From Rhizobium sp. CC-YZS058 (GTDB taxonomy: Bacteria; Pseudomonadota; Alphaproteobacteria; Rhizobiales; Rhizobiaceae), in NCBI RefSeq assembly GCF_034720595.1, contig NZ_JAYESJ010000001.1:3808001-3872000 (forward strand): 64,000 nt of DNA, in the 5' to 3' direction. A model generated the notes under the pieces. It did not search any database, was not told the DNA's origin, and saw nothing but the letters and a program-made list of their open reading frames with translations. The position numbers were made by a program, and so were the translations under genes. The first letter of the stretch is position 1. Each line of letters opens with the position of its first letter. This document shows, piece after piece, positions 9,281-35,540 of this stretch.

Positions 9281-9334
9281 CAAGCTTTCGATGGACGTTT
9301 CGGTCACGGCCGGCGCTGCATGAGCGCCACCGTC

Positions 9335-13963: not shown

Positions 13964-15099
13964 GCGAAACGCCGTTTGCGCCCGCGCGGCGCCAGCGCCG
14001 AGAACAGGGCCCGGATCTGCGGCTCGGGCATGTTCTGGCCGATCAGCACGACGCGGCTGCGGCGGTCACCATCGGGCCAGCCAGGCAGCCTCTGCAGGGG
14101 CGAAAGCCGATGCTCCACCGCATGGGCGACCGCCGGCCTGAGCGGGTCGTCCGACAGCGCGAACACGCCCTTGAGGCGCAGAAGTCCGGAGCCGGGCGCG
14201 CTGGTGACCGCCTCAAGGAAAACCCGGACTGCACCGGGGTCGAGCGGCTGTTCGCCGGACAGGCAGATCGTTCCCAGCGCGTCTCCGTGGCGGTGCAAAG
14301 CCGGCCGGCCTTCCCCGCCTTCGCCGTGCCGCGGCTCGGCCTCCATCAGCAGCCATCCTTCCACATCCTCGACCTTGCCGGCCAGGGAATAGGACTGGCC
14401 CTCAAACAGGTGAACAAGATCGAACCCGGGCGCGGCGCGGTCGTGATAGCGGGCTGCGGGATTGAGCTCCGTCAGTCCCGCCCAATTCGCCTCGCCCAGG
14501 ACCGTCAAGTCCGTCTTCGTCACGACGACATGGTCGGCGAAGGCTAGCTGCTTCCATCCCTGGACGAAGCGCTCGAGCATCATGGGCCCTGAAAGGGCAT
14601 CGAACACGGTCACCACACCGGCAAGGCGAAACTGGCGCGCCACGATATGATCGCGCAGGCCGAGCGCAGGCGCACCGCCCGGAATGAGGCTGTGGATGAT
14701 CGGCGCAGGGTCGGCAAGCCCCGTCGTTTCGATGATCACGCGCGAGATGGGCGGGATTTCGCCGCGGCAGTGGGCATCATGCAGTTCGTAGAGCGAAACG
14801 CGGATATCGCTGGAGGCCGTGCAGCAGAGGCACCCAGTGCTCGTGCGCAGGATGGACGCCCTGCCGGTCTGCACAAGCGCATGATCGATCGGCATGGCGC
14901 CGAATTCGTTGACGATGACCGCCGTGCCTGCCAGGCGCGGGTCCGCGAGCGCCGCGTTCAGCAGCGTCGTCTTGCCGGCGCCGAGAAAACCGGTGAGAAG
15001 CGTGACCGGAATGGCGTCCGGCACGGCGCCGGTGCGCGTGCCCGCAGCCGGTGGACCGGATAGACCTGTCTTGAACAGTCGATCGAACATGATACCCAT
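13960..15099 (-). CDS. COG0523 (CobW/ZigA-like) GTP-dependent metal chaperone, second copy
   Basis: A 379-residue G3E-family GTPase with Walker A TGFLGAGKTT, the metal-binding motif GCLCC, an [10 protein letters not shown] switch region and TKTDL for guanine specificity, followed by a C-terminal CobW domain. Members of this family transfer metal, often zinc, to client proteins during starvation. It is the fourth gene of the znuC-znuB-znuA operon, placing it under Zur. An alternative start at 15090 would shorten it by three residues. A hairpin (15126-15147) sits between znuA and this gene. It is distinct from the paralogue at 17920-18912; two such GTPases in one zinc locus is notable. Confidence 0.88.
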   Translation of the reverse strand: MGIMFDRLFKTGLSGPPAAGTRTGAVPDAIPVTLLTGFLGAGKTTLLNAALADPRLAGTAVIVNEFGAMPIDHALVQTGRASILRTSTGCLCCTASSDIRVSLYELHDAHCRGEIPPISRVIIETTGLADPAPIIHSLIPGGAPALGLRDHIVARQFRLAGVVTVFDALSGPMMLERFVQGWKQLAFADHVVVTKTDLTVLGEANWAGLTELNPAARYHDRAAPGFDLVHLFEGQSYSLAGKVEDVEGWLLMEAEPRHGEGGEGRPALHRHGDALGTICLSGEQPLDPGAVRVFLEAVTSAPGSGLLRLKGVFALSDDPLRPAVAHAVEHRLSPLQRLPGWPDGDRRSRVVLIGQNMPEPQIRALFSALAPRGRKRRFA

Positions 15100-15125
15100 C
15101 CATGGGGCAACCGAGACCTTTGCCC

Positions 15126-15147
15126 TGCCGGAGGATCGTCTCCGGCA
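15126..15147 (-). other. Intergenic stem-loop between znuA and the GTPase gene
   Basis: TGCCGGAG (15126-15133) pairs perfectly with CTCCGGCA (15140-15147) around a six-base loop. No T-run follows on the reverse strand, so it is more likely an mRNA-stabilising or partial-termination structure that keeps znuA expression above the downstream genes. Confidence 0.5.
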
Positions 15148-15164
15148 GAGCGTGGCAATCGTGC

Positions 15165-16106
15165 TCAGCGTCCGAGAATGGCCGCCTTCATCGTCGCGAC
15201 ATTGTGGTGGAACATGTCGATATAGGTCGCGGCCGGGCCGTCGGGCGGCGACAGCGCGTCGGAGTAGAGCGTACCGCCCACCTTCAGGCCGGTTTCACTC
15301 GCGATCTGTTCGATCAGCCGCGGATTGGTGATGTTCTCGACGAAAACGGCCGAAGCCTTGTCGGCCTTCACCTGATCGACCAGCTTGGCGACGTCGGCCG
15401 CCGAGGCGTCCGCTTCCGTCGAAATGCCTTCGGGCGCCAGGAAGGTCAGGCCATAGGCCTTGGAGAAATAACCGAAGGCATCATGTGACGTGATGATGAT
15501 GCGCTTGTCCTTCGGGATCTCCGCGATCTGGCTGCGCACCTCCGTGTCGAGCGCCACGAGCTTGGCGAGATAGGCTTTCTCGTTGGTCTTGTAGCTCTCG
15601 CACCCGGCCTTGTCGGCCTTGCAGAAGGCCGTGGCGATCGCCCTCACATAGGCCTCGCCATTCTTGATCGACTGCCAGGCATGCGGGTCGAAGGCACCGT
15701 GGTGATGCTCCTCCCCGCCGGCTTCGGCCTCACCCTCCTCGTGAGCCTCTTCCTCGCCCTTGATCGGCTTTACGGCCTTGCTGACGGTGATGACCGGAGC
15801 CTTGGTGCCGCTGGTTTCGATCAGCCGCGACAGGAAGCCTTCCAGGCCGAGGCCGTTGACAAGCACGACATCCGCGTCCTTCAGGGCCACCGCGTCGGCG
15901 GGCTTCGGCTCATAGGTATGGGCGTCGCCATCGACCGGCACGATCATCGACACGGAGACCCGGTCGCCGCCGACATTGCGGGCAAGATCGGCGATGATCG
16001 AGAAGCTGGCGACCACCTTGAGTTCGGCAGCGGAAGCGGCTGGCGCCACGAGACTGCTGAGCGTCAGCAGGCTCGCGGCCGTGACAAGGCGTGAAATCCT
16101 GAACAT
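15165..16106 (-). CDS. znuA: Zinc ABC transporter substrate-binding protein ZnuA
   Basis: A 313-residue periplasmic metal-binding protein (cluster A-I). It has a signal peptide (residues 1-27, cut near AASAAE), metal ligand H63 in DAHTYEP, a charged histidine/glutamate-rich loop at about 117-142 with EEHHH, and H142 in FDPHAW. The His-rich loop is the hallmark of ZnuA as opposed to manganese-binding relatives. It delivers Zn2+ to the permease encoded upstream in the same operon. The region upstream of znuC carries inverted Zur-box-like sequences, so it is expected to be induced by zinc starvation. Confidence 0.95.
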   Translation of the reverse strand: MFRISRLVTAASLLTLSSLVAPAASAAELKVVASFSIIADLARNVGGDRVSVSMIVPVDGDAHTYEPKPADAVALKDADVVLVNGLGLEGFLSRLIETSGTKAPVITVSKAVKPIKGEEEAHEEGEAEAGGEEHHHGAFDPHAWQSIKNGEAYVRAIATAFCKADKAGCESYKTNEKAYLAKLVALDTEVRSQIAEIPKDKRIIITSHDAFGYFSKAYGLTFLAPEGISTEADASAADVAKLVDQVKADKASAVFVENITNPRLIEQIASETGLKVGGTLYSDALSPPDGPAATYIDMFHHNVATMKAAILGR

Positions 16107-16137
16107 GGGAAGGCTCCTTGATGAGGTGGGAGAGGGA

Positions 16138-17004
16138 TCAGGCCGTCCTGTGGCGGGTGCCGCGCAGCAGGCTCTGCAGCATGCCGCGGCGACCGATCAG
16201 GGCAGAGGCGAGGTAAAGCCCGCCGGCAACGAAAATGATGGCCGGCCCCGAGGGCATGGCGGCATGGAAGGAAAGAAGAAGACCGCCAAGAGAGGAAAGC
16301 ACTGCAAAACCCATCGCGATCAGGCAAAGCGAGCGCAGGTCGTTCGACCAGAAGCGGGCCGCCACCGCCGGGAGCATCATCAACCCGACCGACAGGAGCG
16401 TGCCGAGCGCCTGGAAGCCGCCGACCAGATTGAGCACCACCAGCACCAGGAAGACGAGATGGACCGGCCCGCCGATACGGCTGACCGAGCGCAGGAACAG
16501 CGGATCCAGGCATTCGGCCACGAGGCCGCGCCACAACAGGGCGAAGGCGAGGAAGGTCAGAAGCGCGATGCCGGTGATGAGGGTCAGGGCCTCGTCGTTC
16601 AGCGCCAGGACCGAGCCGAACAGCACATGCATGAGATCGACGCTGGAGCCATGCCAGGAGACGAGCAGCACGCCGACGGCAAGAGAGATCAGGTAGAAGG
16701 CTGCCATGGACGCGTCCTCCTTCTGCACGGTGAAGCGGGAGACGAGGCCGGAACCGAGGGCGACCAGAAGCCCGATCAGCAGTCCGCCGATGGTCATGGA
16801 CAGCACATCGAGCCCGAACAGCAGAAAGCCGAGTGCCGCGCCCGGCAGGATTGCGTGCGACATGGCATCGCCCGTCAGGCTCATGCGCCGCACCATGAGG
16901 AACACGCCGACAGGCGCGGAACTGACCGATAGCAGCACGGAGCCGAACAGGGCCCGCTGCATGAATCCGTAATCGAGAAAGGGAGAAACCAGCCAGTCAG
17001 CCAT
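16138..17004 (-). CDS. znuB: Zinc ABC transporter permease ZnuB
   Basis: A 288-residue inner-membrane protein of the ABC-3 family with about eight or nine membrane helices and the motif SLTGDAMSHAILPGAALGF, typical of zinc/manganese permeases. It partners with ZnuC and ZnuA. The start at 17004 (MADWLVSPFLDYGF) overlaps the end of znuC by 8 bases and gives the usual family length; a longer in-frame start at 17052 lies deeper inside znuC and is unlikely. The stop lies 31 bases before znuA. Confidence 0.92.
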   Translation of the reverse strand: MADWLVSPFLDYGFMQRALFGSVLLSVSSAPVGVFLMVRRMSLTGDAMSHAILPGAALGFLLFGLDVLSMTIGGLLIGLLVALGSGLVSRFTVQKEDASMAAFYLISLAVGVLLVSWHGSSVDLMHVLFGSVLALNDEALTLITGIALLTFLAFALLWRGLVAECLDPLFLRSVSRIGGPVHLVFLVLVVLNLVGGFQALGTLLSVGLMMLPAVAARFWSNDLRSLCLIAMGFAVLSSLGGLLLSFHAAMPSGPAIIFVAGGLYLASALIGRRGMLQSLLRGTRHRTA

Positions 17005-17809
17005 GGATGCGGCTCCGAGGGGACGGCAGGACGAGAGGGCCTCCAACCGCATCTGCGGCGCCCGGCTGCAGCGTCACGACCTCATCTTCGCACCACCCGG
17101 CCTTCTCATCCCAAACCTCCTGAAAGTTCCGGGCCTCGGACAGAAGCTGCGGCGTGAGAACCTCCGCCGTCGGCCCCCAGGCAACGACCTTGCGGGCCAG
17201 GAGCAGCGTGCGGGGAAAATGCGCACGGACCAGCGCATGGTCGTGCAACACGCAAAGGACCGTGCGGCCTTCCGCAGCCCAGCCTCCGATCACGCCCAGC
17301 AGATCGCGCACCGTTCGCTCGTCCACGGCGTTGAAAGGCTCGTCGAGCAGGATGAGGTCGGCGTCCTGCAGCACCGTTCGGGCGAAAAGCGCGCGCTGCA
17401 TCTGCCCGCCGGAGAGGCTGTCGAGCGGACGCTGCTCGAATCCCTCGAGCCCGACAGCCTGCAGGCTCCGGCCCAGCGCCTCACGGTCGGCCTTCGTTCG
17501 GCGGCCGAGCAGCCCGTGGGTCTGATAGAAACCGAGCGAGACGAGATCGACGACCCGCGCGGGAAAGCTGCGGTCGATCTCCGACTGCTGGGGCAGGTAG
17601 GCAAGCCGCCGACTGTTCGATACGCACCGACCACCGAGCGGCTTCACCATGCCGGCAATCCCCTTGAGCAGTGTGGATTTCCCCGATCCGTTGGCCCCGA
17701 TGATTGCCAGCAGCGCGCCGCGTTCCACCATCCCGCTGAGATGATGGACGGCAGCATGGCCCTGATAGCCGAGCGTCAGGTCTTCGAAAATGAGGCAAGT
17801 CTCAGGCAT
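16997..17809 (-). CDS. znuC: Zinc ABC transporter ATP-binding protein ZnuC
   Basis: A 270-residue ABC ATPase with Walker A GANGSGKST, a Q-loop YLPQQSEID, signature LSGGQMQR, Walker B LILLDEPFNAVD and the switch histidine in VLHDHAL. It energises ZnuB. The start at 17809 (MPETCLIFEDLTLGY) is chosen because it has a GAGGA ribosome-binding site. A longer frame from a TTG at 17863 would start inside the Zur-box region. First gene of the znuCBA-GTPase-small protein operon, divergent from the second GTPase and zur. Confidence 0.93.
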   Translation of the reverse strand: MPETCLIFEDLTLGYQGHAAVHHLSGMVERGALLAIIGANGSGKSTLLKGIAGMVKPLGGRCVSNSRRLAYLPQQSEIDRSFPARVVDLVSLGFYQTHGLLGRRTKADREALGRSLQAVGLEGFEQRPLDSLSGGQMQRALFARTVLQDADLILLDEPFNAVDERTVRDLLGVIGGWAAEGRTVLCVLHDHALVRAHFPRTLLLARKVVAWGPTAEVLTPQLLSEARNFQEVWDEKAGWCEDEVVTLQPGAADAVGGPLVLPSPRSRIHG

Positions 17810-17841
17810 GGCATCCTCGGGGATTGACAGAGGCTGCTTAT

Positions 17842-17890
17842 GTAATGTTATACCGTTCGTCAACAGGAATCGTAACGGTATAACATTCTG
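17842..17890. promoter_or_regulatory. Divergent promoter region with two inverted Zur-box-like sites
   Basis: GTAATGTTATACCGTT at 17842-17857 and AACGGTATAACATTCT at 17874-17889 are inverted copies sharing 14 identical bases. Each resembles the alphaproteobacterial Zur half-site pattern (AATGTTATA ... TATAACATT). They lie between the divergently transcribed znuC and COG0523 GTPase genes, so one Zur-bound region can repress both operons when zinc is sufficient. The box assignment rests on symmetry, known consensus and gene context. Confidence 0.75.
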
Positions 17891-17919
17891 GCCGCTGCGC
17901 CGGAAGACTGGAGACCCTG

Positions 17920-18912
17920 ATGCTGACGACCGAAACGCCGGCCACGCCGGTCACTGTCCTCACCGGCTATCTCGGCGCTGGCAAGACCACGCTCCTCAAT
18001 CGCATCCTCACCGAGCCGCACGGCCGAAAATTCGCGGTCATCGTCAACGAGTTCGGCGAAGTCGGAATCGACAACGACCTCATCGTCGAGAGCGATGAGG
18101 ATGTCTTCGAGATGAACAATGGCTGCATCTGCTGCACGGTACGCGGCGATCTCATCCGCATCATCGAGAGCCTGATGCGCCGCAGGGATCGCTTCGACGG
18201 CATCCTGATCGAGACCACGGGCCTTGCCGATCCCGCACCGGTTGCCCAGACCTTCTTCGTCGATCCCGACGTGCGCGCCAAGACGCGGCTCGATTCGATC
18301 ATCACCGTGGTCGATGCACTGCATCTCGTCGGTGCGCTGGAAACGGCCCACGAGGCGCAGGAGCAACTGGCCTTTGCCGATACGATCCTTCTCAACAAGA
18401 CCGATCTGGTCGATGCCGCGGCACTGACGTCGGTGGAAGAGCGCATCCGGCGGCTGAACCCGGTGGCCAGCATCCTCCACACGCAGCGGTGCAATGTCGA
18501 CGTTGCCAGCCTCCTCGACCGGCATGCCTTTGATCTCGACCGAATCCTGGATGTGGAGCCCGACTTTCTTCAGGACGTTCACGCGCACGATCATGACGAC
18601 GGCATCACCAGCTTCTCGCTCGTCGAGCGGACGCCGATGGATCCCGAGAAACTCTTCGCCTGGCTGCAAAGGACAGTGCAGACCTTCGGGCAGGACATCC
18701 TGCGCATGAAAGGCATCATTTCCTTTGCGCAGGATGACGACCGGTTCGTGATCCAGGCGGTGCACATGCTGCTGGAGGGGGATCATCAACGCCCCTGGAA
18801 GGACGGCGAAGAGCGGCTGACGCGACTGGTCTTCATCGGTCGGGATCTCCCGCGCGATATCATCACCGCCGGCTTTGCCCGCTGCAGGGCGCTGCCGCTC
18901 GCTGCGGAATGA
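17920..18912 (+). CDS. COG0523 (CobW/ZigA-like) GTP-dependent metal chaperone, first copy
   Basis: A 330-residue G3E GTPase with Walker [11 protein letters not shown] (residues about 15-24), the metal site GCICC (68-72), [15 protein letters not shown] and a C-terminal domain containing a HAHDHDD histidine cluster. It probably hands zinc to essential zinc proteins during starvation. The start has GGAG upstream. The stop overlaps a possible zur start (ATGA), so it and zur form an operon opposite znuCBA with a shared Zur-box region, a classic zinc-limitation arrangement. Confidence 0.92.
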
Positions 18913-18980
18913 GGAGCGATCCGGGGCATGCGGCACGGACGGGCGATGGCGATGGCGATGGAAAAGGGCGGACCACGGCG

Positions 18981-19400
18981 ATGAGCAGGTCGCGGGCCAA
19001 GCCTTCGAGCGAACCGCGCCTGACCCGCAACCAGGGCCTTGTCCTTGCGGTCCTGCAGGCTTCGGCGCAGCCGCTGAGCGCATACAACATTCTCGATCGT
19101 CTGCGAGGCGAGGGTTTGAAGGCCCCGCTCCAGGTCTATCGCGCGCTCGAGAAATTGCTGCAGACAGGTCGGATCCATCGCCTGGAAAGCATGAATGCCT
19201 TCGTCGTCTGCTGCCATGCCCACCATGGGCAGGCAGATCCGCGTATGGCGGCGTTCGAAATCTGCGATTCCTGCGGCAAGGTGAGCGAATTCCACGACGA
19301 AGGGGTCGAGACTGCTCTGATCCGGCACAGCCGCACGAGCGGCTTCACGATCCGCGCCACGACCATCGAGATGCATGGTCTCTGCAAGGCCTGTGGCTGA
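18981..19400 (+). CDS. zur: Zinc uptake regulator Zur (Fur family)
   Basis: A 139-residue Fur-family repressor. The N-terminal winged helix includes TRNQGLVLAVLQ and VYRALEKLL. The metal-sensing half carries CCHAHHG and two CxxC pairs (ICDSCG and LCKACG), the structural zinc site of Zur/Fur. With zinc bound it represses the flanking zinc-uptake operons. An in-frame ATG at 18909 overlaps the upstream gene and would add 24 residues of Gly/Asp-rich sequence not typical of the family, so 18981 is preferred, although its ribosome-binding site is weak. Context makes Zur far more likely than Fur or Irr. Confidence 0.88.
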   Translation: MSRSRAKPSSEPRLTRNQGLVLAVLQASAQPLSAYNILDRLRGEGLKAPLQVYRALEKLLQTGRIHRLESMNAFVVCCHAHHGQADPRMAAFEICDSCGKVSEFHDEGVETALIRHSRTSGFTIRATTIEMHGLCKACG

Positions 19401-25906: not shown

Positions 25907-27322
25907 CTAGGCGGCCGGGCGGACGAGCGCCGACTTGCCGCGTGGCAGATAGTGTCCCTGCGGCTGGTCGGCTCCCGCAAGCGCACCATCCTGCATGACG
26001 GTTCGACCCTGCACCAGAAGTCGCACCGGCCAACCTTCCACCTCCAGCCCTTCATAGGGCGTATAGTCCGCCCCGTGCTGAAGGAGATCGTTGCTCAGCG
26101 TCACCCGCTTCTCCGGGTTCCACAAGGCGATGTCGGCATCGGCGCCGATGGCGATCGTGCCCTTGCGCGGATAAAGCCCGTAGAGCTTGGCATGGTTGGT
26201 CGCGGTCAGGGCGACGAACTGATTGAGATCGATCCGGCCCTTGCGCACGCCCTCGGAAAACAGGATCGGCAAACGGGTGCCGACGCCTGGAATGCCGTTC
26301 GGGATCCAGCGGAAATGCCGCTTGCCCTTCTCGTTCAACTTGCCTTCCGCATCATCGAAACGGAAGGGGCAATGGTCGGAGGAGAAGAGGTCGAACACGC
26401 CCTGCTCCAGCCCCTCCCAGCAGGCGTCCTGGCTCGCCTTGTCGCGCGGCGGCGGGGAGCAGACGAACTTTGCTCCTTCGAGCGCTTCCTGGTCGAGATC
26501 GTCGGCCGTCAGTATCAGATATTGCGGGCAGGTTTCACCGGCGATCTTCTGGCCGCGCTGGCGGGCACGGCGGATCTCCTCCATCGCCTCGCGGTTCGAA
26601 ACATGGACGATGACGATCGGGACGTCGACGATTTCCGCCAGAGACAAGGCCCGATGCGTCGCCTCGCGTTCGGCCGCGATCGGCCGGGTGCTCGCATGGA
26701 ACTTCGGCGCGAACTTGCCCTCCTCCTCGTGCCGGCCGATCAGGTAGCGGATCGCGTCCTCGTTTTCGCAATGGACCATGACCAGCGCGCCGGTGCGCCG
26801 CGCCGTGTCGAGCGTGGCGAGGATCTCGTCATCGCGCAGGCGCAGTCCCTCATAGGTCATGAAGACCTTGAGCGAGGTGTAGCCATCCTCCACCAGGGCC
26901 GGCAGCTCCTGGCCCAGCACCTCCGGCGTCGGGTCGGTGATGACCAGGTGGAAGGCAACATCCACATGGCATTTGTTCTCGGCCTTGGCATGATAGACCT
27001 TCAGGGCCTCGCGCAGCGTCTGGCCCTTCTCCTGCATGCAGAAGGCGAGGACCGTGCTGTTGCCGCCGATCGCCGCCGAGCGCGTGCCGCTTGCAAAATC
27101 ATCGGCCATGACGATCCCGTCTCCGGACGGCTGGTCGAGATGGACATGGCTGTCGATGCCGCCCGGCAAAGCGAGGAGGCCGGTGGCGTCGATCACCTCG
27201 TCGGCCTCGGTCAGGCCCAAAGCCAGCGCGACGATGCGCCCGTCCTTGATGCCGATATCGCTGGTGAAGCTGTCGCTGGCCGTCACCACCGTTGCATGTC
27301 GGATCACCGTGTCGAAGCGCAT
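25907..27322 (-). CDS. D-hydantoinase / dihydropyrimidinase
   Basis: A 471-residue cyclic amidohydrolase with the complete binuclear metal site: H59 and H61 in DSHVHLD, carbamylated K152 in SLKVFMTY, H184 in MVHCEN, H240 in VHVSN and D316 in SSDHCPF. It opens dihydrouracil or 5-substituted hydantoins to N-carbamoyl products in the cytoplasm. It is the last gene of a reverse-strand unit that starts with an amino-acid-type ABC transporter and includes a PLP enzyme 23 bases upstream, so it probably processes an imported ureide-like compound. True pyrimidine catabolism would normally have preA/preT nearby; these are absent. Confidence 0.93.
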   Translation of the reverse strand: MRFDTVIRHATVVTASDSFTSDIGIKDGRIVALALGLTEADEVIDATGLLALPGGIDSHVHLDQPSGDGIVMADDFASGTRSAAIGGNSTVLAFCMQEKGQTLREALKVYHAKAENKCHVDVAFHLVITDPTPEVLGQELPALVEDGYTSLKVFMTYEGLRLRDDEILATLDTARRTGALVMVHCENEDAIRYLIGRHEEEGKFAPKFHASTRPIAAEREATHRALSLAEIVDVPIVIVHVSNREAMEEIRRARQRGQKIAGETCPQYLILTADDLDQEALEGAKFVCSPPPRDKASQDACWEGLEQGVFDLFSSDHCPFRFDDAEGKLNEKGKRHFRWIPNGIPGVGTRLPILFSEGVRKGRIDLNQFVALTATNHAKLYGLYPRKGTIAIGADADIALWNPEKRVTLSNDLLQHGADYTPYEGLEVEGWPVRLLVQGRTVMQDGALAGADQPQGHYLPRGKSALVRPAA

Positions 27323-27345
27323 GGCCGTTCTCCTATCCGCCTGTT

Positions 27346-28611
27346 TCAGCTTGCCTTGGCGAGACCGGCCTCGCTAGCCAGAATACGGTCGAGCGCGGCC
27401 GTGAAGCGGTCGACCTCCTCGACCGTGTTGTAATGCACCATCGAGACGCGCAGCATGCCGCCATGATCGGTCAGGCCGAGATATTCGGCCAAGCGACGCG
27501 AGTGGAAATCGCCGAAGCGCATGGCGATCTGTTCCTCGTCCATCGCCTTGCACAGTTCGCCGGCCTCGCGCCCATCGAAGCGGAAGGCGATCGTCGGCAC
27601 GCGCTGGCTGTCCCGGTTGACCGGCTGGCCGACGATCGTGCAGTCGTTGCGGGTCCGCAGATAGGCGAGCAGCCGCTCGGTCAGCGCATCTTCCTGAACG
27701 GTGATGGCGCCATAGGCCGCCTCGATCTTCTCGCGCACCGTGCCGGTCTCGCCGGCCTTTTCGCCGAGCGTTGCGAGGTAATCCAGGATGCCGCAGGTGG
27801 CATAGGCGAGCTCGTAGTTCGGGTTGCCCGGCTCCAGCTTGCCCGGCACTTTGTCCTTGCCGTAGAAATAGTGGTAGAGCGTGTCGAGCTCGAGCAGCAG
27901 CTCATACTTGCCGTACATCAGGGCGTAATGCGGCCCGTAGGTCTTGTAGAGGCTGAAGACATAGTAATCGGCATCGAAGGCCTGCACATCGACGGCGCGG
28001 TGCGGCGCATAGGCCACCGCATCCACGCAGAGTTTCGCGCCGCGGGCATGGACGAAATCGGCGATGGCGCGGACCGGATTGACCGATCCCAGAATATTGG
28101 ACACGTGGGTGACGCAGACGAGCTTCGTGCGGTCGCTCATCAGCGGCGCGAGATCGTCGAGTTCCAGCGTCAGCGTGTCCTTGTTGAGCGGCCAGATCTT
28201 GAGAACGACGCCGATCGCCTGCAGCCGGTCCCAGGGGCCGATATTGCTCTCGTGATCGCTGACGGTGATGATGATCTCGTCGCCGGGCTGCAGCTGGCTC
28301 TGCATGGCGCGGGCCAAATTCTGCAGGAGCGCCGTGGTCGAGGAGCCAAAGACGATTTCTTCAGGGCGGCGTGCATGGACGAGATGCATGGCGGCGGTGC
28401 GAGCCTCGTAGAGTGCCTTGGCCGCAGCCTGGGACACGGCATAGGAGCCGCCGATCTGCACGTTCTTCTCGATCAGGAAGGTGTTGATGCGCTCGAGCGC
28501 GCCCTTGAGGATCTGCGATCCGCCGGCATTGTCGAAGAAGGTCCAGCCGCGGTTGAGACCCGGAAACTGGCTGCGGACATAATCGAGGTCGAGCGGGGTG
28601 TTGGTGGACAT
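27346..28611 (-). CDS. Cysteine-desulfurase-like class V PLP enzyme (VC1184-type subfamily)
   Basis: A 421-residue fold-type I PLP enzyme beginning MSTNTPLDLDYVRSQFPG and NRGWTFFDNAGGSQ, the opening typical of the cysteine desulfurase-like VC1184 subfamily. The PLP lysine is in FSLYKTYGPH, and a conserved aspartate lies in KLCVDAVAYAPH. It lacks an obvious catalytic cysteine loop like that of IscS, so a role in sulfur delivery is doubtful; a lyase or transaminase step on the transported substrate is plausible. It sits between the ABC transporter genes and the hydantoinase gene, 23 bases ahead of the latter. The start at 28611 removes 23 atypical upstream residues. Confidence 0.88.
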   Translation of the reverse strand: MSTNTPLDLDYVRSQFPGLNRGWTFFDNAGGSQILKGALERINTFLIEKNVQIGGSYAVSQAAAKALYEARTAAMHLVHARRPEEIVFGSSTTALLQNLARAMQSQLQPGDEIIITVSDHESNIGPWDRLQAIGVVLKIWPLNKDTLTLELDDLAPLMSDRTKLVCVTHVSNILGSVNPVRAIADFVHARGAKLCVDAVAYAPHRAVDVQAFDADYYVFSLYKTYGPHYALMYGKYELLLELDTLYHYFYGKDKVPGKLEPGNPNYELAYATCGILDYLATLGEKAGETGTVREKIEAAYGAITVQEDALTERLLAYLRTRNDCTIVGQPVNRDSQRVPTIAFRFDGREAGELCKAMDEEQIAMRFGDFHSRRLAEYLGLTDHGGMLRVSMVHYNTVEEVDRFTAALDRILASEAGLAKAS

Positions 28612-28640
28612 TGGGTGAAACTCCCGGACTTTTCTTGTTC

Positions 28641-28684
28641 GAGCATGCTGCCGAAAAGCTTTTGCGGTTTTCGGCATCATGCTC
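28641..28684. repeat. Palindromic intergenic element A (rhizobial REP/RIME-like)
   Basis: GAGCATGCTGCCGAAAA (28641-28657) pairs with a 17-base arm at 28668-28684 with one mismatch around a ten-base loop. Rhizobial genomes carry many intergenic palindromes with this GCATG / GCCGAAAA pattern. It sits just upstream of the PLP enzyme gene, in the gap after the ABC ATPase gene. Confidence 0.7.
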
Positions 28685-28699
28685 TGCTTCTTGGTTCGA

Positions 28700-28745
28700 G
28701 GCCGGATTCAGATTTCAGGTCGATCCGACCTGAAATCATCCGGCC
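28700..28745. repeat. Palindromic intergenic element B, probable terminator of the ABC genes
   Basis: A long hairpin: GGCCGGAT (28700-28707) and GATTTCAGGTCG (28711-28722) pair with CGACCTGAAATC (28726-28737) and ATCCGGCC (28738-28745), a 20-bp stem with a three-base bulge and three-base loop. The arm touches the last base of the ATPase stop codon. It may attenuate or end transcription before the PLP/hydantoinase genes and looks like a dispersed rhizobial repeat. Confidence 0.7.
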
Positions 28746-29485
28746 TAGTGATTGAGCACGGCGCGCAGGAAGCTGCGGGTGCGCTCCTCCTGCGGGGCGT
28801 CAAAGATCTGGGCCGGCGGACCGGCCTCCACCAGCCGACCGCCATCCATGAAGATGACGCGATCGGCCACCTGGCGGGCAAAGCCCATTTCGTGGGTGAC
28901 GACGACCATGGTGACGCCGGTGCCGGCGAGCTTGCGCATGACATCCAGCACCTCGCCGACCATTTCCGGGTCGAGCGCCGAGGTCGGCTCGTCGAAAAGC
29001 AGCACGCGCGGCTCCATGGCGAGCGCGCGGGCAATGGCGACTCGCTGCTGCTGGCCGCCGGAAAGCTGACCGGGGAATTTTTCCGCCTGCTCGCCGATGC
29101 CGACACGGGACAGGAGGTCGCGCGCCTTGCGCTCGGCCTCGGCCTTTGTCGTGCCGCGCACCCGCATCGGCGCCAGCATGACATTCTTCAGCACGCTCAT
29201 ATGCGGAAAGAGGTTGAAGGACTGGAAGACCATGCCGACTTCCGCCCGCACCTTGGCGAGCGCCTTGCCCGGCGCAACGCGGATGCCATCGACATCGATC
29301 GTGCTCTCCGGCGCGAAGGCCTCCAGATGGTTGATGCAGCGGATCAGCGTCGATTTGCCCGAGCCGGACGGCCCGATCACGCAGACGACCTCGCCCTCGG
29401 CGATATCGAGGTCGATGCCGTGGAGCACGGTGAAGGTTCCGTAGGCCTTGGTGAGGCCGCGGATGGAGATGATCGAACCGGACAT
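28745..29485 (-). CDS. Polar amino acid ABC transporter ATP-binding protein (GlnQ-like)
   Basis: A 246-residue ABC ATPase with Walker [11 protein letters not shown]-loop [11 protein letters not shown], signature LSGGQQQR, Walker [12 protein letters not shown] and the H-loop VVVTHEMGF. This is the standard size and sequence style of polar amino acid importers (PAAT family). The start overlaps the permease stop (TGATG), so the two are translationally coupled. A large hairpin repeat follows its stop. Confidence 0.93.
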
Positions 29486-30156
29486 CAGCGCTTCCCCCGG
29501 GCAAAATGCTTCTCGAGCCGGGCGACGACCGCGACCATGGGCCAGAGCAGCGCCACATAGATGATGGCCGCGCCGATGAGCGGCGTCGGATTGGCCTGAA
29601 GCGCCTGGGCTTGGGTCGCCTGCTTGAGCAGGTCCGGCATGGCGACCACGGAGGCGAGCGCCGTGTCCTTCATCACGTTGATGCAGTTGTTGGTCAGCGG
29701 CGGAATGACGATGCGGACCGCCTGCGGCAGGATCACATCGACCATCATGTCCTTGTTCGACAGGCCGAGCGCGGCGGATGCCTCGAACTGGCCATGCGGA
29801 ATGGCCTCGATGCCCGCCCGGAAGATCTCGGCCGTATAGGCGGCGGAGACAAGCGACAAAGCGGTGACGGCCGAGAGAAAGGGCGACAGCCGGATGCCGA
29901 TGAAGGGCAGCGCGTAATAGACGACGATCAGCAGCACGAGCAGCGGGATCGACCGGAAGATATCGATATAGATCCGGATCAGCGTCTTGGCGGCTTGAGG
30001 GGCGTAAAGCCGGGCGATCGCCAGGAACAGGCCGCCGATCAGGCCGACGATGATGCTGGTCACGCCGATCTGCAGCGTGATCAAGAGACCTGACAGGAGC
30101 TGCGGCAGGCTGGCGAGCAGCACCTGCCAATTGAAGAAGGTATTGATGAGCGTCAT
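29485..30156 (-). CDS. Polar amino acid ABC transporter permease
   Basis: A 223-residue inner-membrane permease with about five helices, the EAA-type loop [24 protein letters not shown] and C-terminal [15 protein letters not shown], all typical of HisM/GlnP proteins. It is the only permease in the cluster, so it probably works as a homodimer. It is coupled by TGATG to the ATPase gene and follows the binding-protein gene after a 162-base gap that contains a strong stem-loop. Confidence 0.93.
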
Positions 30157-30275
30157 GGCCGCTAAGGCTCCCCGGGCAGGAGGCGGACCCGCAAGGCGGG
30201 ACCACCCCGTCCGATGCAGGATGGCGAGCAGGTCCGGCTGACGTGCCGGAACCTGCTGTCGTGGCGGGAGGATGA

Positions 30276-30306
30276 ACCGTTCCGGCGAAGGACCCGCCGG
30301 AACGGT
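30276..30306 (-). other. Stem-loop between binding-protein and permease genes
   Basis: ACCGTTCCGGCG (30276-30287) pairs perfectly with CGCCGGAACGGT (30295-30306) around a seven-base loop, 12 bases after the binding-protein stop. Such structures commonly stabilise or partially terminate the binding-protein mRNA so that it is made in excess over permease and ATPase. There is no T-run. Confidence 0.7.
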
Positions 30307-30318
30307 CGGCTAAGCCGC

Positions 30319-31119
30319 TTACTTGGCCTTCGGCATGTCGAGAACGGCGACCGTCGAGGTGGTGTCTTCGGCCTTGGCGCCGAACCAGCTCTCGTGCAGC
30401 TTGGCGATGAAGCCTTCGCCCTTCAGCTTGGTGATGACCTCGTTGACCTCGGTGGCCAGCGGATCGCCCTTGTTGAACATGATCGAGTATTTTTCGCCGG
30501 TCGGGATACGCTCGACGACCTTCAGCTCCGGCTTGTCCTTCACGTAATAGAGAAGGGCCGGAATATCGGAAATATAGCCATCGACGCGGCCGGCCACGAG
30601 GTCGAGCATGGCGGGCTGCAGGCCTTCGAAGCGGCGGATTTCGCCGAGCTTGTATTCGCCCTTGTGAGCTTCGGCCCACATGTCGCCGGTGGAGCCGGTA
30701 TCGACGCCGACGACCTTGTCGCCCATGTCCTTCAGGCCGGTAATGCCGGACGCGGCCGTCACGGTCAACGACTGGTCGCTGTCGTAGTAAGGCTGGGCGA
30801 AGGTGACCGAGGCCAGGCGCTTTTCCGTGATCGTGATCGAGGAGATCGCCATGTTGATGCGGCCGGACTGGACGGCCGGGAAGAGACCGTTGAACGGCGT
30901 GTTGACGAATTCGACCGTCTTGCCGAGACGCTTGGCGATCTCGTTGACGAGGTCGACTTCGAAGCCGGTGACCTTGCCGCTGGCATCTTCGAATTCCCAC
31001 GGCACGTTGCCGATATTGGCGCCGACAGTGAGATCGGCGGCGTTCGCCGCGCCGACCGAGCCGAGGAGCGCGAGGAAGCCGGTCAGCACCGAAAGAGTGC
31101 GGGTGGTTGTGCGTGTCAT
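30319..31119 (-). CDS. Amino-acid-type ABC transporter periplasmic substrate-binding protein
   Basis: A 266-residue periplasmic protein with a signal peptide (residues 1-28, ending GAANAA) and a bilobed SBP_bac_3 domain: [15 protein letters not shown], the [14 protein letters not shown] block, [10 protein letters not shown] and a hinge region with DMWAEA. It is in the size range of GlnH/FliY-type proteins. The downstream hydantoinase and PLP enzyme suggest a ligand that is an amino acid derivative or ureide rather than a common amino acid. The start at 31119 has a strong GGGGAA ribosome-binding site. Its promoter region contains the FadR-type operator. Confidence 0.93.
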
Positions 31120-31165
31120 GAGAGTTCCCCTTGTTTTATGAACGTGACTCATTCACCATGGTCTA

Positions 31166-31180
31166 ACTGGTCAGACCAGT
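31166..31180. promoter_or_regulatory. FadR/GntR-type operator between regulator and transporter genes
   Basis: ACTGGTCAGACCAGT is a perfect 15-bp palindrome around a central A and matches the TGGT-N3-ACCA core used by FadR-subfamily GntR regulators. It lies between the divergent binding-protein gene (start 31119) and the GntR-type gene (start 31267), so it probably controls the transporter operon and perhaps the regulator itself. Confidence 0.75.
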
Positions 31181-31266
31181 CAGGCCAAAAAAGCATGAAG
31201 CTTTCGGCTTGGCAATGGCCTTTGAAAATTAGATTTTGATGGTGACGCCGCCAAACCCCGCACGGG

Positions 31267-31971
31267 ATGAGAATGTTCAACAAGACGCTTGTTCCCCAAT
31301 CGGTCGCCCGGGACCTCCAGACGATGATCCAGACCGGAGCGCTGAAGCCCGGCGAGAAGATCCCCTCGCAGCGCGAGTTTTCCCAGAAGCTCGGCGTCAG
31401 CCGCGCCTCCCTGCGGGAAGCCTTGCTGACGCTGGAAACGTTGGGGCTGTTGAAGACCGAAGCCGGCCGCGGCACTTTCGTCACCGATCCGGCGGAGAGC
31501 GCGCAAGGGGCGTCCGGCGAAATGGCGCCCTGGCGCTATTCCGATCGCTATTCGGTGTTCGACGTCTTCCAGACGCGCATTCTGCTCGAGGGCGAGATCG
31601 CCCGGCTTTCCGCCGGGCGACTGGCGGAGCTGCAGCTCGACCAGATGGAGCGCGCCACGCAAACCATGGAGGAGTGCTGGGCCCGGCAGGACCGGCTCGC
31701 CAATGTCGAGGCCGACCTCGCCTTCCACGGCATCATCGTCTCTGCCTGTTCCAACGCCATGTTGCAGGCGCTCTACCACACGGTGCGCGACCAGGTGACG
31801 GAGACGCAGCGCCAGCCGATCCCGATCACCGATCCCGAGCGGATGAAGGATTCGATCGACGAACATCGCCGCATCATCGCCGCACTGCGCGCCAACAACG
31901 GGCCGGAAGCAAAGCAGGCGATGGAAAGCCATATCCGCAACACCGCCCGCTGCGCCGGTCTCCTTCCCTAA
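31267..31971 (+). CDS. GntR-family regulator, FadR/FCD subfamily
   Basis: A 234-residue regulator. The N-terminal winged helix contains KIPSQREFSQKLGVSRASLREAL and GLLKTEAGRGTFV. The all-helical FCD effector domain carries the metal-ligand pattern of the family (D..H in EADLAFHGII, a later EHRRIIAAL and ESHIRNTARC). It is divergent from the amino-acid-type transporter, PLP enzyme and hydantoinase genes, and a palindromic operator of its subfamily lies between them. It is therefore the likely local repressor, released by the transported compound or an intermediate. No strong ribosome-binding site is visible before 31267; an internal Met at codon 3 is possible. Confidence 0.9.
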   Translation: MRMFNKTLVPQSVARDLQTMIQTGALKPGEKIPSQREFSQKLGVSRASLREALLTLETLGLLKTEAGRGTFVTDPAESAQGASGEMAPWRYSDRYSVFDVFQTRILLEGEIARLSAGRLAELQLDQMERATQTMEECWARQDRLANVEADLAFHGIIVSACSNAMLQALYHTVRDQVTETQRQPIPITDPERMKDSIDEHRRIIAALRANNGPEAKQAMESHIRNTARCAGLLP

Positions 31972-31994: not shown

Positions 31995-32651
31995 TCAAGG
32001 CAGGAAGGTCGTGGGGATGGGCTGCCACCGGCCATCGATCTTCGTGAATTGCGGGATATGGGCAAGGCTGTGGATCAGCGCTGCATCGTCTTGAAGCGTT
32101 GCTTCCCAGTCCCGCGCTTCGGTCAGGATAACGCCGACCCCGACGACGATTCCCCCTGCCTTTCGCACCAGCTCGATCGAGCCCTTCAGGCTGGAGCCGG
32201 ACGCCACGACGTCGTCCACCACCACGACGCGCTTGCCGGAAAGCAGCGGCGCTGACCGCCGGTCGAGCAGCAGCTTCTGCTCGCCCTTGGAGGTGATGGA
32301 GGAGATGGTCTGGACCAGCGCATCGCCAAGATGGATCTTCGGCGACTTCTGCAGCACCACATAGTCATCAAGCCCGAGCGCGCGGCTGACCTCGATCGCC
32401 ACCGGAATTCCAAGCGTCGCAGCGCCGACGATGACCTCCGGTTCGAGCGGCGCCAGTTTGGCGGCCAGCGCTTGGCCGACATGTTCGCCGAAGCGGACGC
32501 CGAGGTCGATCACCATCATCAGCGAGATGGCGAAGCTGTCGGTGATCGAGACGATCGGCAGCTCGACCGTACGGCCTGCCACATCGACCGACCAGCGTTC
32601 ACCGGTGATGGGAGAGGAGGATGCCGTCGCGGCAGGGGAATCGTCTGTCAT
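31995..32651 (-). CDS. Purine/pyrimidine-type phosphoribosyltransferase
   Basis: A 218-residue type I phosphoribosyltransferase with the PRPP-binding motif VVVVDDVVASGSS and a preceding flexible loop (SSITSKGEQKLLLD). An apt-like opening ITDSFAISLMMVIDLG is unusual. It would convert an incoming nucleobase plus PRPP into a nucleotide, trapping it in the cell. The start overlaps the stop of the ECF T-component gene (ATGA), making it the last gene of the S-A-T transporter operon. Homology is to adenine/xanthine-type enzymes in general; the base cannot be deduced. Confidence 0.88.
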   Translation of the reverse strand: MTDDSPAATASSSPITGERWSVDVAGRTVELPIVSITDSFAISLMMVIDLGVRFGEHVGQALAAKLAPLEPEVIVGAATLGIPVAIEVSRALGLDDYVVLQKSPKIHLGDALVQTISSITSKGEQKLLLDRRSAPLLSGKRVVVVDDVVASGSSLKGSIELVRKAGGIVVGVGVILTEARDWEATLQDDAALIHSLAHIPQFTKIDGRWQPIPTTFLP

Positions 32652-33319
32652 TGTGGTCTGTCCTTGATGGTCAGCGAAGGCTCGACGAGCAAGCCCACAT
32701 GGCGCCAGGTGGTGCGCTTGCGGCGCATGTCGAATCCATAGAGCGAGAGTGAGATGGAGATGGCATGAGCCATGCGGATCGCCTGCACCAAGAGCGGCAC
32801 GCCGCGTGCGAGCGCGAAGCGCAGGCGGGTGGGAAACGGCACGTCGTCGATTTCCATGCCGCGTGCCCGCTGCGCATCGGCGATCCGCTCGAAATCCTCG
32901 CGCAGCATGGGAATGATGCCGAATGTGAGCGAGAGAACCAGGGTGACGACGGGCGGCAGCCGCGCCGCACTGGCAGCTGCCAGAATCGAACCCGGCGAGC
33001 TGGTTTCCATGACGAAGAAGAAAGCCGCCGTGGTTGTCACCAGTCGCGCCGCCATGCCGAGGGCGGTGAGGAGCGCCGGCGCGAGGGCCATGCCCTGGAG
33101 CATGAGATTGAGCATCCAGCTCGCCAAGACAAGAAGCACGAGCAAGACCACGCCGCGCAGATAGGCGTTTAACCCCGGCACATGAATGAGCCAGAGAAAG
33201 ACGAGCGCGCCGAGCGCCAGGGGTACTCCGAAGCGCCAATCCGGTGCAAGCCATGCGGCGAGCATGACGAGAAAGGCGAGGGCAAGCTTGACGAAGAAGT
33301 TAAGCTCATGAAGCTGCAT
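32648..33319 (-). CDS. ECF transporter transmembrane component (EcfT)
   Basis: A 223-residue membrane protein with five or six hydrophobic helices and the two Ala-Arg-Gly coupling motifs of EcfT: ADAQRARGMEI and the later ALARGVPLLVQAIRMAHAIS. It connects the substrate-specific S component to the ATPase. The start at 33319 (MQLHELNFFVKLAL) overlaps the fused ATPase gene by 14 bases. Third gene of the operon, coupled to the phosphoribosyltransferase gene by ATGA. Confidence 0.9.
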   Translation of the reverse strand: MQLHELNFFVKLALAFLVMLAAWLAPDWRFGVPLALGALVFLWLIHVPGLNAYLRGVVLLVLLVLASWMLNLMLQGMALAPALLTALGMAARLVTTTAAFFFVMETSSPGSILAAASAARLPPVVTLVLSLTFGIIPMLREDFERIADAQRARGMEIDDVPFPTRLRFALARGVPLLVQAIRMAHAISISLSLYGFDMRRKRTTWRHVGLLVEPSLTIKDRPQ

Positions 33320-34841
33320 GATGCCACTCCGTCTGCGCAAGGAATCGGGGCTCTGGCCAGCCAAGTGCGCGGTAGGCCGGGCTCCGCCAGGCGGCGATGG
33401 TGTCCCCGTCATAAGTGATCCGCCCCTCATCGAGCAGCAGCACCCGGCCTGCCCGCTCGGCTGCAAGTTCGAGATCATGCGTGATGAGCAGGACGGCTCG
33501 GCCGGAGGCGCAGGCACCGTCGATAAAGCGATCCAGAAGCCGCTTGCCGTTGAGATCGCGGGCCAGAAGGGGTTCGTCGAGGATCGCAAGCGCGGCGCCG
33601 GAAGCCTCTGCACAGGCGAGCCCCAGCAAGGCCTGCTGGCGCGTCGACAAGGCGAAGGGGTTGGTCTGTGCCAGACCGGACAACCCATAGGCCGCAAGCG
33701 CCGTCTCCGCCTTTTCCAGAATGGCTGGGTCCTTCGGCATCACCGGCGAGGCGGTGATTGCGAAGGTGACCTCCTGCAGCACCGTCATGTTGAACAGGAT
33801 ACGCCGCATGATCTGTGGCAGATAGGCGATGGACCGGGCGCGACGGGCCGCTGTCCAGCCGCCGGCATCAGCCCCTCCGATCGCAAGTGTCCCGCCAGTC
33901 ACCGCGGCCAGGCCGAGGATCGACTGGAACAGCGTGGTCTTGCCTGCACCGTTGCGGCCGATCAGCGCCACGCATTCGCCGGCCCGGATGGTCAGGTCGA
34001 TCTCTTCCAGCACCGGACGGCCCGTTGGTCGTTGAAGGGCTGTTCTCAGTTTCTTGACGCAGAGCAGGGTCCGGCCGAGCGGGTAAACCTTCGCCGCCGC
34101 TTGGCGCCTGAAGGGAGGCAGCAGGCCCGCATCGGTCCAGGCCGCCCCGTCTGCCATCAGTCCGGCCTTTGGCTGCAGGGAGGAGAGGACGCCGGACGCC
34201 AGAAGCGCGATCTCGTTGATCGCCGGTGCGATTGCCGCCGCATCCTGTTCGGCAATCAGCAGGGACGGGATCTCGGCACCGAAGGTGGCGAGGCTGCGCA
34301 ACAGGCGCTGACGGGCCGCCGGATCAAGGCCCGTGGTCGGCTCGTCCAGCACCAGAAGGCGGGGCGCCGCCGCCAGTGCGGCCGCAATGGCCACCATGCG
34401 CCGTTCCCCGCCGGAAAGGGTCAGCACCCGCCGCCCCTTGAGATCATGAAGCTCGAGCCCGTTGATCAGGGTCGCAAGGCGGGCACGGATCTCCGCCCGG
34501 CCCACCCCGCGGTTTTCAAGCGGAAAGGCGATCAGATCCTCGACGCTCAGGTCCCAGACCTGATCTTCCACCGCCTGGGCAACGAGGCCGATCGTCTGGA
34601 AGAGGCTATCTTTCGAGACGGTCCGCACCGGTTGGCCGTCGAGCTCGATGCTGCCGGAGATCGTATCGGGTCGCACCAGGCGCGGAATGATGCCGGCTGC
34701 AGCCTGTAGCAGTGTCGTCTTGCCGCTGCCTGCCGCTCCACAGACAAGCAGCCTTTGACCGGCGGCGATGGAAAGATCGGCTCCGGAAAGGGCGAGCGTG
34801 CCATTCCCGTAGCCGACGCTGAGATTGCGGAGATCAAGCAC
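33306..34841 (-). CDS. ECF transporter ATPase with two fused ABC domains
   Basis: A 511-residue protein made of two ABC ATPase halves in tandem, replacing separate EcfA and EcfA'. The first half has Walker A GAAGSGKTT, signature LSGGERR and Walker B LLVLDEPTTGLD. The second half has Walker A GRNGAGKTT, a degenerate signature LSTRQQA and Walker B LAILDEPLLARD, ending with an ITHDLE switch. A GTG at 34841 (V-LDLRNLSVGYG) is taken as start; no ATG is available in frame without running far into the S-component gene, whose stop is 18 bases upstream. It overlaps the T-component gene at its end. Confidence 0.88.
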   Translation of the reverse strand: MLDLRNLSVGYGNGTLALSGADLSIAAGQRLLVCGAAGSGKTTLLQAAAGIIPRLVRPDTISGSIELDGQPVRTVSKDSLFQTIGLVAQAVEDQVWDLSVEDLIAFPLENRGVGRAEIRARLATLINGLELHDLKGRRVLTLSGGERRMVAIAAALAAAPRLLVLDEPTTGLDPAARQRLLRSLATFGAEIPSLLIAEQDAAAIAPAINEIALLASGVLSSLQPKAGLMADGAAWTDAGLLPPFRRQAAAKVYPLGRTLLCVKKLRTALQRPTGRPVLEEIDLTIRAGECVALIGRNGAGKTTLFQSILGLAAVTGGTLAIGGADAGGWTAARRARSIAYLPQIMRRILFNMTVLQEVTFAITASPVMPKDPAILEKAETALAAYGLSGLAQTNPFALSTRQQALLGLACAEASGAALAILDEPLLARDLNGKRLLDRFIDGACASGRAVLLITHDLELAAERAGRVLLLDEGRITYDGDTIAAWRSPAYRALGWPEPRFLAQTEWHHAAS

Positions 34842-34858
34842 GTTGCATGCAATCCGGG

Positions 34859-35431
34859 TCAGAAGCGCTGGAAGCCGGAGGGATGGGCGCTCTTCAGGAT
34901 CTTGAGCGCCGGAATGACGAGCAGCGGCGTTCCGATGATCATGGGGACGATGTCCGAAAGGCCGAGATAGCCGAACGCCCACCAGAAGGGAAAGATGCCG
35001 AGATAGGCAAGGCTGGCTGAAACGGCGAGCACCATGACGATCCCGACCACGAGGCAGGTTGCCGCAATTTTAGCCAAGGTCGTGCGGGTCATCGACACGG
35101 TCTTCGGATCGAAGAGCAGGCCCGGAACGAGGCCGGTGAGCCCCACCATGATGCCATCGACGATCAGCGAATGAGCGGGAATGAACGTGCCGGCCAGAAG
35201 TGACCAGACGATCGTGCCGAGATAGCCACAGATGAAGCCGCTGCGCCAGCCGAGCAGGATGCCGACGAGCGGCGGAAGAAAGGCGAAGATGCGCCACTGA
35301 ATGACCCCGGGGACCAGCTGGATCGGGTTGGCATAGGCCCAGAGCACGCCGGTGGCCGCAGCGGCGACGATGGACAGGACGATGGGAAAGAGCGTGTTGC
35401 CCTCGGTTTCGGCAAGCGCAGTGTTGGACAT
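34859..35431 (-). CDS. ECF transporter substrate-binding S component, ligand unknown
   Basis: A 190-residue membrane protein with about six helices and the size of ECF S components. Segments such as VPGVIQWRIFAFLPPLVGILLG and GYLGTIVWSLLAG fit an energy-coupling factor S unit, but I do not recognise it as BioY, ThiT, RibU, YkoE or another characterised type. First gene of an S-A-T-phosphoribosyltransferase operon. It has a GGGGAA ribosome-binding site and a sigma-54-type promoter 20 bases before that. The coupled phosphoribosyltransferase suggests that the ligand is a nucleobase. Confidence 0.85.
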   Translation of the reverse strand: MSNTALAETEGNTLFPIVLSIVAAAATGVLWAYANPIQLVPGVIQWRIFAFLPPLVGILLGWRSGFICGYLGTIVWSLLAGTFIPAHSLIVDGIMVGLTGLVPGLLFDPKTVSMTRTTLAKIAATCLVVGIVMVLAVSASLAYLGIFPFWWAFGYLGLSDIVPMIIGTPLLVIPALKILKSAHPSGFQRF

Positions 35432-35462
35432 GGAGTTCCCCTTTTTTGTTCAAGGGGATGAA

Positions 35463-35480
35463 CGCAAGTTCCATGCCAGG
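35463..35480 (-). promoter_or_regulatory. Sigma-54-type promoter of the ECF-phosphoribosyltransferase operon
   Basis: On the reverse strand CTGGCATGGAACTTGCG matches the RpoN consensus TGGCAC-N5-TTGCA with the required ten bases between GG (-24) and GC (-12). A transcript from it would start near 35452, leaving about 20 bases before the S-component ATG at 35431, with the ribosome-binding site inside. This predicts NtrC- or other enhancer-dependent control. Confidence 0.65.
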
Positions 35481-35504
35481 ATAAGTTTCGGCTAACCCTC
35501 GCCA

Positions 35505-35522
35505 GCGGGCAGAGCTGCCCGC
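35505..35522. other. Palindrome in the gap between the oxidoreductase and ECF genes
   Basis: GCGGGCAGAGCTGCCCGC is a perfect 18-bp palindrome lying just downstream of the Gfo/Idh gene stop and upstream of the sigma-54 element. It could be the oxidoreductase terminator (no T-run is present) or an activator site; position alone cannot decide. Confidence 0.45.
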
Positions 35523-35540
35523 AGACGAGAGAACGGCGGC

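Follow-up and report, generated by a model that had tools for sequence, protein, structure and literature searches.

Importers of the energy-coupling factor (ECF) type are known mainly as carriers of vitamins and metals. The dedicated or group I systems, such as BioMNY and CbiMNQO, encode the S, A and T components together and include two ABC domains and a T component of the CbiQ type, while the queuosine-precursor systems (QrtT/QueT) import a purine-like base. QrtT/QueT are counted as one of two known transporter families for the salvage of Q precursors (PMC11130926). The operon described here occupies positions 31995 to 35480 on the minus strand of a 64,000-nucleotide stretch of DNA from Rhizobium sp. 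CC-YZS058 (contig NZ_JAYESJ010000001.1, positions 3,808,001 to 3,872,000; the whole stretch is referred to below as the window) and comprises the genes of an S component, a fused double ATPase, a T component and a phosphoribosyltransferase, preceded by a sigma-54 element. It shares with the group I systems the features listed above and differs from them in that its S component falls in no curated S family over cut-off, in that S is the most conserved subunit in the groups of loci compared and in that the operon includes a phosphoribosyltransferase. It also differs from QrtT/QueT: PF06177 (QueT) is absent from the five families that 70 homologues of S match, and no preQ1 riboswitch match occurs at the operon. 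The phosphoribosyltransferase, for its part, has its domain, its loop for phosphoribosyl pyrophosphate (PRPP) and its best sequence scores in common with adenine/guanine phosphoribosyltransferases (5zgo, 6fsp), adenine phosphopsicosyltransferase (7f06) and xanthine phosphoribosyltransferase, and differs from them in lying under all curated specificity cut-offs and in being encoded with an importer. Judging from sequence, we lean towards the view that the operon specifies a self-contained group I ECF importer together with its own phosphoribosyltransferase, made from one transcript of an RpoN promoter and serving to scavenge a base-like compound.

All four genes lie on the minus strand in the order S-A-T-phosphoribosyltransferase. 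The predicted S component, a substrate-binding membrane protein of 190 amino acids read from the open reading frames, is encoded at 34859..35431 (ATG at 35431). After a gap of 17 nucleotides (nt) follows the fused ECF double ATPase (A-A', 511 amino acids, 33306..34841, GTG start at 34841), in which Pfam finds ABC_tran twice (165.6 bits); the first ABC half carries the signature LSGGE and the second a degenerate LSTRQ, and ECF_ATPase models are among the best-scoring NCBIfam entries, yet the protein stays under their equivalog cut-offs. The gene of the T component (CbiQ family, 223 amino acids, 32648..33319, ATG at 33319) overlaps that of the ATPase by 14 nt; its product reaches 59.2 bits with CbiQ PF02361 (Pfam cut-off 25) and lies under the cobalt-specific equivalog TIGR02454 (41.2 vs 111.8 bits needed). 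The type I phosphoribosyltransferase gene (218 amino acids, 31995..32651, ATG at 32651) overlaps the T gene by 4 nt, and its product scores 52.9 bits with Pribosyltran PF00156 against a Pfam cut-off of 26.3. An ECF/phosphoribosyltransferase operon, as proposed in a preliminary description of this DNA, is thus borne out by ABC_tran (twice), CbiQ and Pribosyltran, all over their Pfam cut-offs. The four tightly overlapping genes of that description are to be amended, since overlap holds for the A-T and T-phosphoribosyltransferase junctions and not for S and A; its observation of four genes with a sigma-54-type element, which proved to be conserved, is confirmed.

The sigma-54 -24/-12 element TGGCATGGAACTTGC (35464..35478, minus strand) is an exact site with GG-N10-GC spacing. 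It lies 20 bases ahead of the ribosome-binding site of S (AAGGGGAA, 35436..35443, minus strand, by direct reading) and 32 nt ahead of the S ATG, and it scores 11/12 against TGGCAYG-N4-TTGCW. The spacing and the distance claimed earlier are both correct, in agreement with a predicted sigma-54 promoter. The genome contains 8 matches to the exact pattern TGGCAYGNNNNTTGC and 4 to a reversed control pattern, so that a single site proves little by itself, and these counts are what speaks for the alternative of a fortuitous match, with transcription initiated at some other point. Two of the seven other exact sites in the genome are also in promoter position. One exact site precedes a dctA-like gene by 68 nt, with dctBD-like genes some 2.5 kb away (names by reading). 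Another (locus L117, C1:3779000-3798900 of the same genome) is located 45 or 54 nt, depending on the start codon, before a solute-binding-protein gene surrounded by amidase-, formamidase- and urease-like genes (named by reading, no family search). RpoN is encoded by one copy in the genome, and the AAA+ activator family PF00158 is over cut-off 7 times, 5 of them strong; from sequence features we take these five proteins to be NtrC, NtrX, DctD, a second DctD-like protein and an orphan response regulator.

What carries the promoter claim is conservation among relatives of the operon. Relatives of S were gathered from genomes of the family, from GTDB contigs (72 loci) and from protein searches (best 120 matches of each listed); several loci are near-duplicates, and two with weak or broken matches (L014, L111) are not counted as relatives. 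The 150 nt before S were scored with a 12-position consensus in 84 loci (78 alphaproteobacterial and 6 distant, the window itself, L001, being excluded), and gene order was read with a self-trained codon model, with tblastn as a check on all 84. A divergent LysR-family gene lies upstream in 31 of the 78 alphaproteobacterial loci (one recognized by family search and the rest by tblastn; the gene runs into the locus end in 4 short loci), and 30 of these 31 carry an extra phosphoribosyltransferase gene before S. Among the 47 loci lacking LysR, 43 have a site of at least 10/12 in the 150 nt before S, and in 42 of these it falls in the interval from -70 to -38; when two sites of 9/12 are included, the element begins 39-64 nt before S in 44/47. 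No LysR locus has a site of at least 10/12 (0/31; best 9/12), nor was one found in the 200 nt before the first, upstream phosphoribosyltransferase gene in the 28 LysR loci examined. Of 664 other genes in these loci, taken as a control, 15 have a site that reaches 10/12. In an alignment of 29 distinct sites (28 plus that of the window) GG and TTGC are invariant, conservation is lacking in the flanks (0.13 bits on average), and 25 sites have a T at the unscored position that follows the -12 box; since these sites were picked at 9/12 or more, selection flatters the scored bases, but has no such effect on the unscored position or on the narrow range of distances.

The conservation of the element therefore exceeds chance, whereas the single site in the window does not. 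It had been stated beforehand that the promoter claim hung on conservation of the element in homologous operons, and its presence in 43/47 LysR-less loci strengthens that claim. Further plasmid loci were held out: of 6 matches 5 were used, the sixth being a second record of a strain already covered. Two of them, without LysR (L119, L120), have 11/12 sites at -55 and -62 (2/2), and three with LysR (L121, L122, L123) have no site in 200 nt (3/3; best 9/12 at -166), so that five of five are as predicted. Against this record, together with the absence of the site from all 31 LysR loci, a chance match is very improbable.

Some loci depart from the pattern and weigh against the proposed RpoN control or against a strict exchange of the element for LysR. 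The sites of L065 and L066 reach only 9/12 (at -49 and -39), that of L075 lies only at -139, and both LysR and a sigma-54 site are missing from L063 and L070. In a tree of 71 distinct S sequences (L085, with an S match of 79 residues, was omitted), the two control classes switch state few times, support is weak at 29 of the 68 forks, and about three independent pairs bear on the swap; in about two of these the presence of the site runs counter to that of LysR (sign test p 0.5). As only three such pairs exist, the swap is not statistically proven by the tree; a Fisher p of 1e-17 was rejected as evidence alone, being inflated by the kinship of the loci. That the promoter is conserved among divergent hosts is independent of the swap. 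In the drawing, whose midpoint root serves for display only, early branches with the sigma-54 form include the Inquilinus and Geminicoccus lineages, most of the Bradyrhizobium group, Hansschlegelia and Phyllobacterium. Salipiger mucosus holds two copies of the module (L070, L086), one with LysR and the other (L070) without LysR and without the sigma-54 site. A gene of the SLOG family (LDcluster4) stands between LysR and the operon in two loci (L045:6634-7233 and, by clustering, L076:7379-7975).

The preliminary description further called the system nitrogen-regulated, which is not supported as stated: an NtrC-like 17-mer box is not consistently present upstream in 42 loci or in the window, and 31/78 relatives have LysR, without the element. 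A 10/12 NtrC-like match occurs solely in L003 and L073, which are near-identical, 328 nt upstream of the element, and no fixed-distance enhancer appears in the 100 nt upstream of the element, where no column exceeds 0.55 bits. These results count against the nitrogen part of the proposed physiology, and NtrC control was dropped for want of a consistent box. The term nitrogen-regulated is a reasonable guess, its basis being the exact site before the amide/urea-type cluster of the same genome, and nitrogen-regulated nucleobase salvage is a plausible physiology.

The identity of the S component was approached by profile comparison. The protein of the window reaches no Pfam or NCBIfam family over cut-off and has no sequence relative in the PDB (profile search with 23 rows), in keeping with the earlier statement that it could not be assigned to a known vitamin family. 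A comparison with ECF S profiles, suggested at the same time, gave a divided answer. When the 70 homologues were scanned singly (E<=0.01), 24 matched PF07155 (best E 1.4e-4) and 7 matched PF12822 (best E 1.1e-4), both ECF S component families; these matches are weak, and 21 homologues match DUF2232 about as well (best E 4.4e-5). The alignment of 70 rows gave E 0.0055 and a probability of 6.6% with one PF07155 group in hhalign, a weak result, and E 0.08-0.11 with two other S groups, which does not surpass five membrane controls (0.08-0.4). The DUF2232 matches and the low hhalign probability tell against an ECF assignment, and the protein is taken to be an S component mainly by its context and weakly by profile. 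Residues N35, R47, H87 and D92 are invariant across the 70 sequences, which would fit a polar ligand. Conservation is highest for S in all 6 groups of loci compared (35 hand-chosen loci); in ten LysR-less relatives the figures are 86% for S, 60% for A, 76% for T and 76% for the phosphoribosyltransferase.

Homologues of S carry the NCBI name 'aminotriazole resistance protein'. The seven open-licence papers that use this exact name concern fungi, according to titles and abstracts, and no open-licence paper was found that links 'aminotriazole resistance' with Rhizobium or an ECF transporter. As a real function of the family it was set aside after a looser open-licence search, the best 20 of whose 84 matches held nothing on this system. 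The label is probably a misannotation.

The nearest PDB relatives of the phosphoribosyltransferase are the adenine/guanine and phosphopsicosyl enzymes named above. Its PRPP loop VVVVDDVVASGSS is intact, and DDV is invariant in 17 aligned homologues. It lies under every curated specificity cut-off, namely PRK07322 (125.5/143 bits), the xanthine model PRK09219 (59.7/177) and TIGR01090 for apt (30.9/185.85), which weakens the case for a particular purine substrate. A protein of this fold might also regulate the transporter or sense PRPP for it instead of acting as an enzyme, as the Pur operon repressor is among the PDB relatives and two phosphoribosyltransferase paralogues occur in 30/78 loci; this is quite improbable given that Pfam detects no DNA-binding domain, that loop and DDV are preserved and that the adenine/guanine enzymes outscore the repressor. 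As an enzyme it would not provide the 'energy-independent trapping' once ascribed to it, because phosphoribosylation spends PRPP.

Its gene is closely tied to S, which it follows in 66/66 alphaproteobacterial loci of sufficient length (12 short loci are uninformative) and in 4/5 cyanobacterial loci; in the fifth (L085) the match is incomplete. This linkage also bears on the alternative that the system imports a vitamin or cofactor precursor (e.g., a pyrimidine or thiazole moiety of thiamin, or a 7-deazapurine), the phosphoribosyltransferase acting on the precursor or being incidental. Most S components of known ligand bind vitamins, an NMT1/THI5-like binding protein gene adjoins one cyanobacterial locus (L082), and PF07155, to which S has its weak profile likeness, is a family named after riboflavin transport. 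A vitamin-type ligand is nevertheless unlikely in view of the constancy of the phosphoribosyltransferase, the purine-acting nature of its nearest solved relatives and the lack of an S family over cut-off or a PDB relative for S, and in view of an Rfam scan of the whole window at the gathering threshold, which gave 1 match, Atu_At1, far from the operon, and no riboswitch at the operon.

A nitrogenous base-like ligand is favoured by the relatives of the phosphoribosyltransferase, by its linkage to S, by the invariant polar residues of S and by the neighbours of S in Bacillota, and a purine-like base is a plausible best guess. The nucleobase substrate of the preliminary description holds in part, in that purine enzymes are nearest and Bacillota relatives of S stand beside adenine deaminase and amidohydrolase-type genes, and not in that no specificity cut-off is reached.

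In three Bacillota genomes (L084/L115, L113, L114) S lies in a microcompartment locus with genes of these kinds. Besides S, A and T, the Cohnella locus (L084) encodes members of the isochorismatase (best model biuret amidohydrolase, below cut-off), creatininase and cyclase families, UbiX and UbiD, both over cut-off, microcompartment shell proteins and an adenine deaminase that exceeds its equivalog cut-off (482.4 vs 472.5 bits). The eleven Cohnella proteins tested were all found again around S in L113 and L114. According to one account, the BUF type of microcompartment locus has amidohydrolases, a deaminase, a carboxy-lyase and an isochorismatase, and nitrogen-containing substrates have been inferred for it (PMC4207490); another defines BUF by the absence of aldehyde dehydrogenase (PMC8217296). 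Compared by gene content only, the Cohnella locus with S has such kinds of genes, while the operon of the window differs in being without microcompartment genes.

Two features of the Bacillota loci argue against extending the salvage reading to them. A phosphoribosyltransferase like that of the window was found by tblastn in none of the four genomes (0/4; L084, L112-L115), so that S may serve catabolism there; and of the whole set the fourth genome (L112) carries just A, T and S, so that it lacks the catabolic genes as well. In L112 the order A-T-S is followed by zinc-homeostasis-like genes (by reading), resembling a zinc-homeostasis-like cluster at 13688-19400 of the window that consists of COG0523-type GTPases, an ABC transporter and a Zur-like gene (also by reading).

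Catabolism has to be weighed for the alphaproteobacterial operons as well, namely that a nitrogen heterocycle is degraded as a nitrogen source and the phosphoribosyltransferase is merely the entry step. The Bacillota relatives beside adenine deaminase, isochorismatase-, creatininase-, cyclase- and UbiD-type genes point in this direction, as do the other exact sigma-54 site, before the amide/urea-type cluster of the same genome, and the peptide-type ABC transporter genes that adjoin the operon on the same strand (by reading), downstream in L063 (5457-10526) and upstream in L068 and L069. The neighbourhoods speak otherwise: in alphaproteobacteria there is no constant neighbour besides LysR and the extra phosphoribosyltransferase, the next commonest clusters outside the operon occur in 17, 11, 9, 9, 8 and 8 loci (flanks of up to 8 kb), a number of which are limited to closely related genomes, and the neighbours in Bradyrhizobium look like housekeeping genes (by reading). 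Catabolism is, on this evidence, a rather unlikely role, slightly more so than the import of a vitamin precursor.

Relatives of S occur in 14/247 genomes of the family, including that of the window and one weak match (L014), while a sample of the class (385 genomes) gave a match in this genome only and the order of Cohnella gave matches in 5/392 genomes, one of them weak and broken. On these sparse matches the module is patchy. It resides on a conjugative plasmid in Rhizobium etli 8C-3 (L119) and adjoins Tn3 transposase and recombinase genes on a plasmid of Geminicoccaceae, settings that suggest horizontal transfer.

For salvage through the ECF importer and its phosphoribosyltransferase, the following course can be proposed. 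An AAA+ activator would open the RpoN promoter under shortage of a nutrient, most likely nitrogen, and S would bind a nitrogenous, base-like compound in short supply, most likely a nucleobase of the purine type, which A and T would import at the expense of ATP. The phosphoribosyltransferase, using PRPP, would then convert the imported base to a nucleotide, which would be trapped, feed the nucleotide pools and spare de novo synthesis. The module is portable; in some lineages the RpoN promoter is missing and a divergent LysR gene, almost always accompanied by another phosphoribosyltransferase gene, is found in its place. A more far-reaching version, which is possible and falls somewhat short of probable, would see here a new S family for a purine-type nucleobase or nitrogen heterocycle within an ECF-plus-PRPP salvage module that has spread horizontally through alphaproteobacteria and cyanobacteria, with an RpoN promoter and a LysR gene plus extra phosphoribosyltransferase alternating in its control and the same S family feeding a BUF-like microcompartment in Bacillota.

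If this holds, ECF importers would extend to the salvage of bases under nutrient stress, tied to a phosphoribosyltransferase and switched by RpoN, and a very conserved orphan S family would gain a testable class of ligand; the relatives of S in the microcompartment locus may help to find the substrate of that compartment. The matches listed in a search of the open-licence literature held nothing relevant on a system combining ECF, phosphoribosyltransferase and RpoN, and the operon may represent an undescribed scavenging system.

The surroundings of the operon in the window deserve brief mention. An inverted repeat without a T run, read from the sequence at 35498..35529 (minus strand) in the gap between an upstream Gfo/Idh gene and the promoter, is possibly the terminator of the Gfo/Idh gene. 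On the other side, positions 25907-31971 encode a dihydropyrimidinase/hydantoinase, a class V aminotransferase-like protein, an amino acid ABC transporter and a GntR regulator, the gene of the last being convergent with that of the phosphoribosyltransferase with 23 nt between them. Farther away, two tandem genes of 606 codons each at 7249-11155 have very similar N-termini, probably owing to duplication, and the Atu_At1 small RNA (RF02496) is located at 2229-2336 on the minus strand (110 bits).

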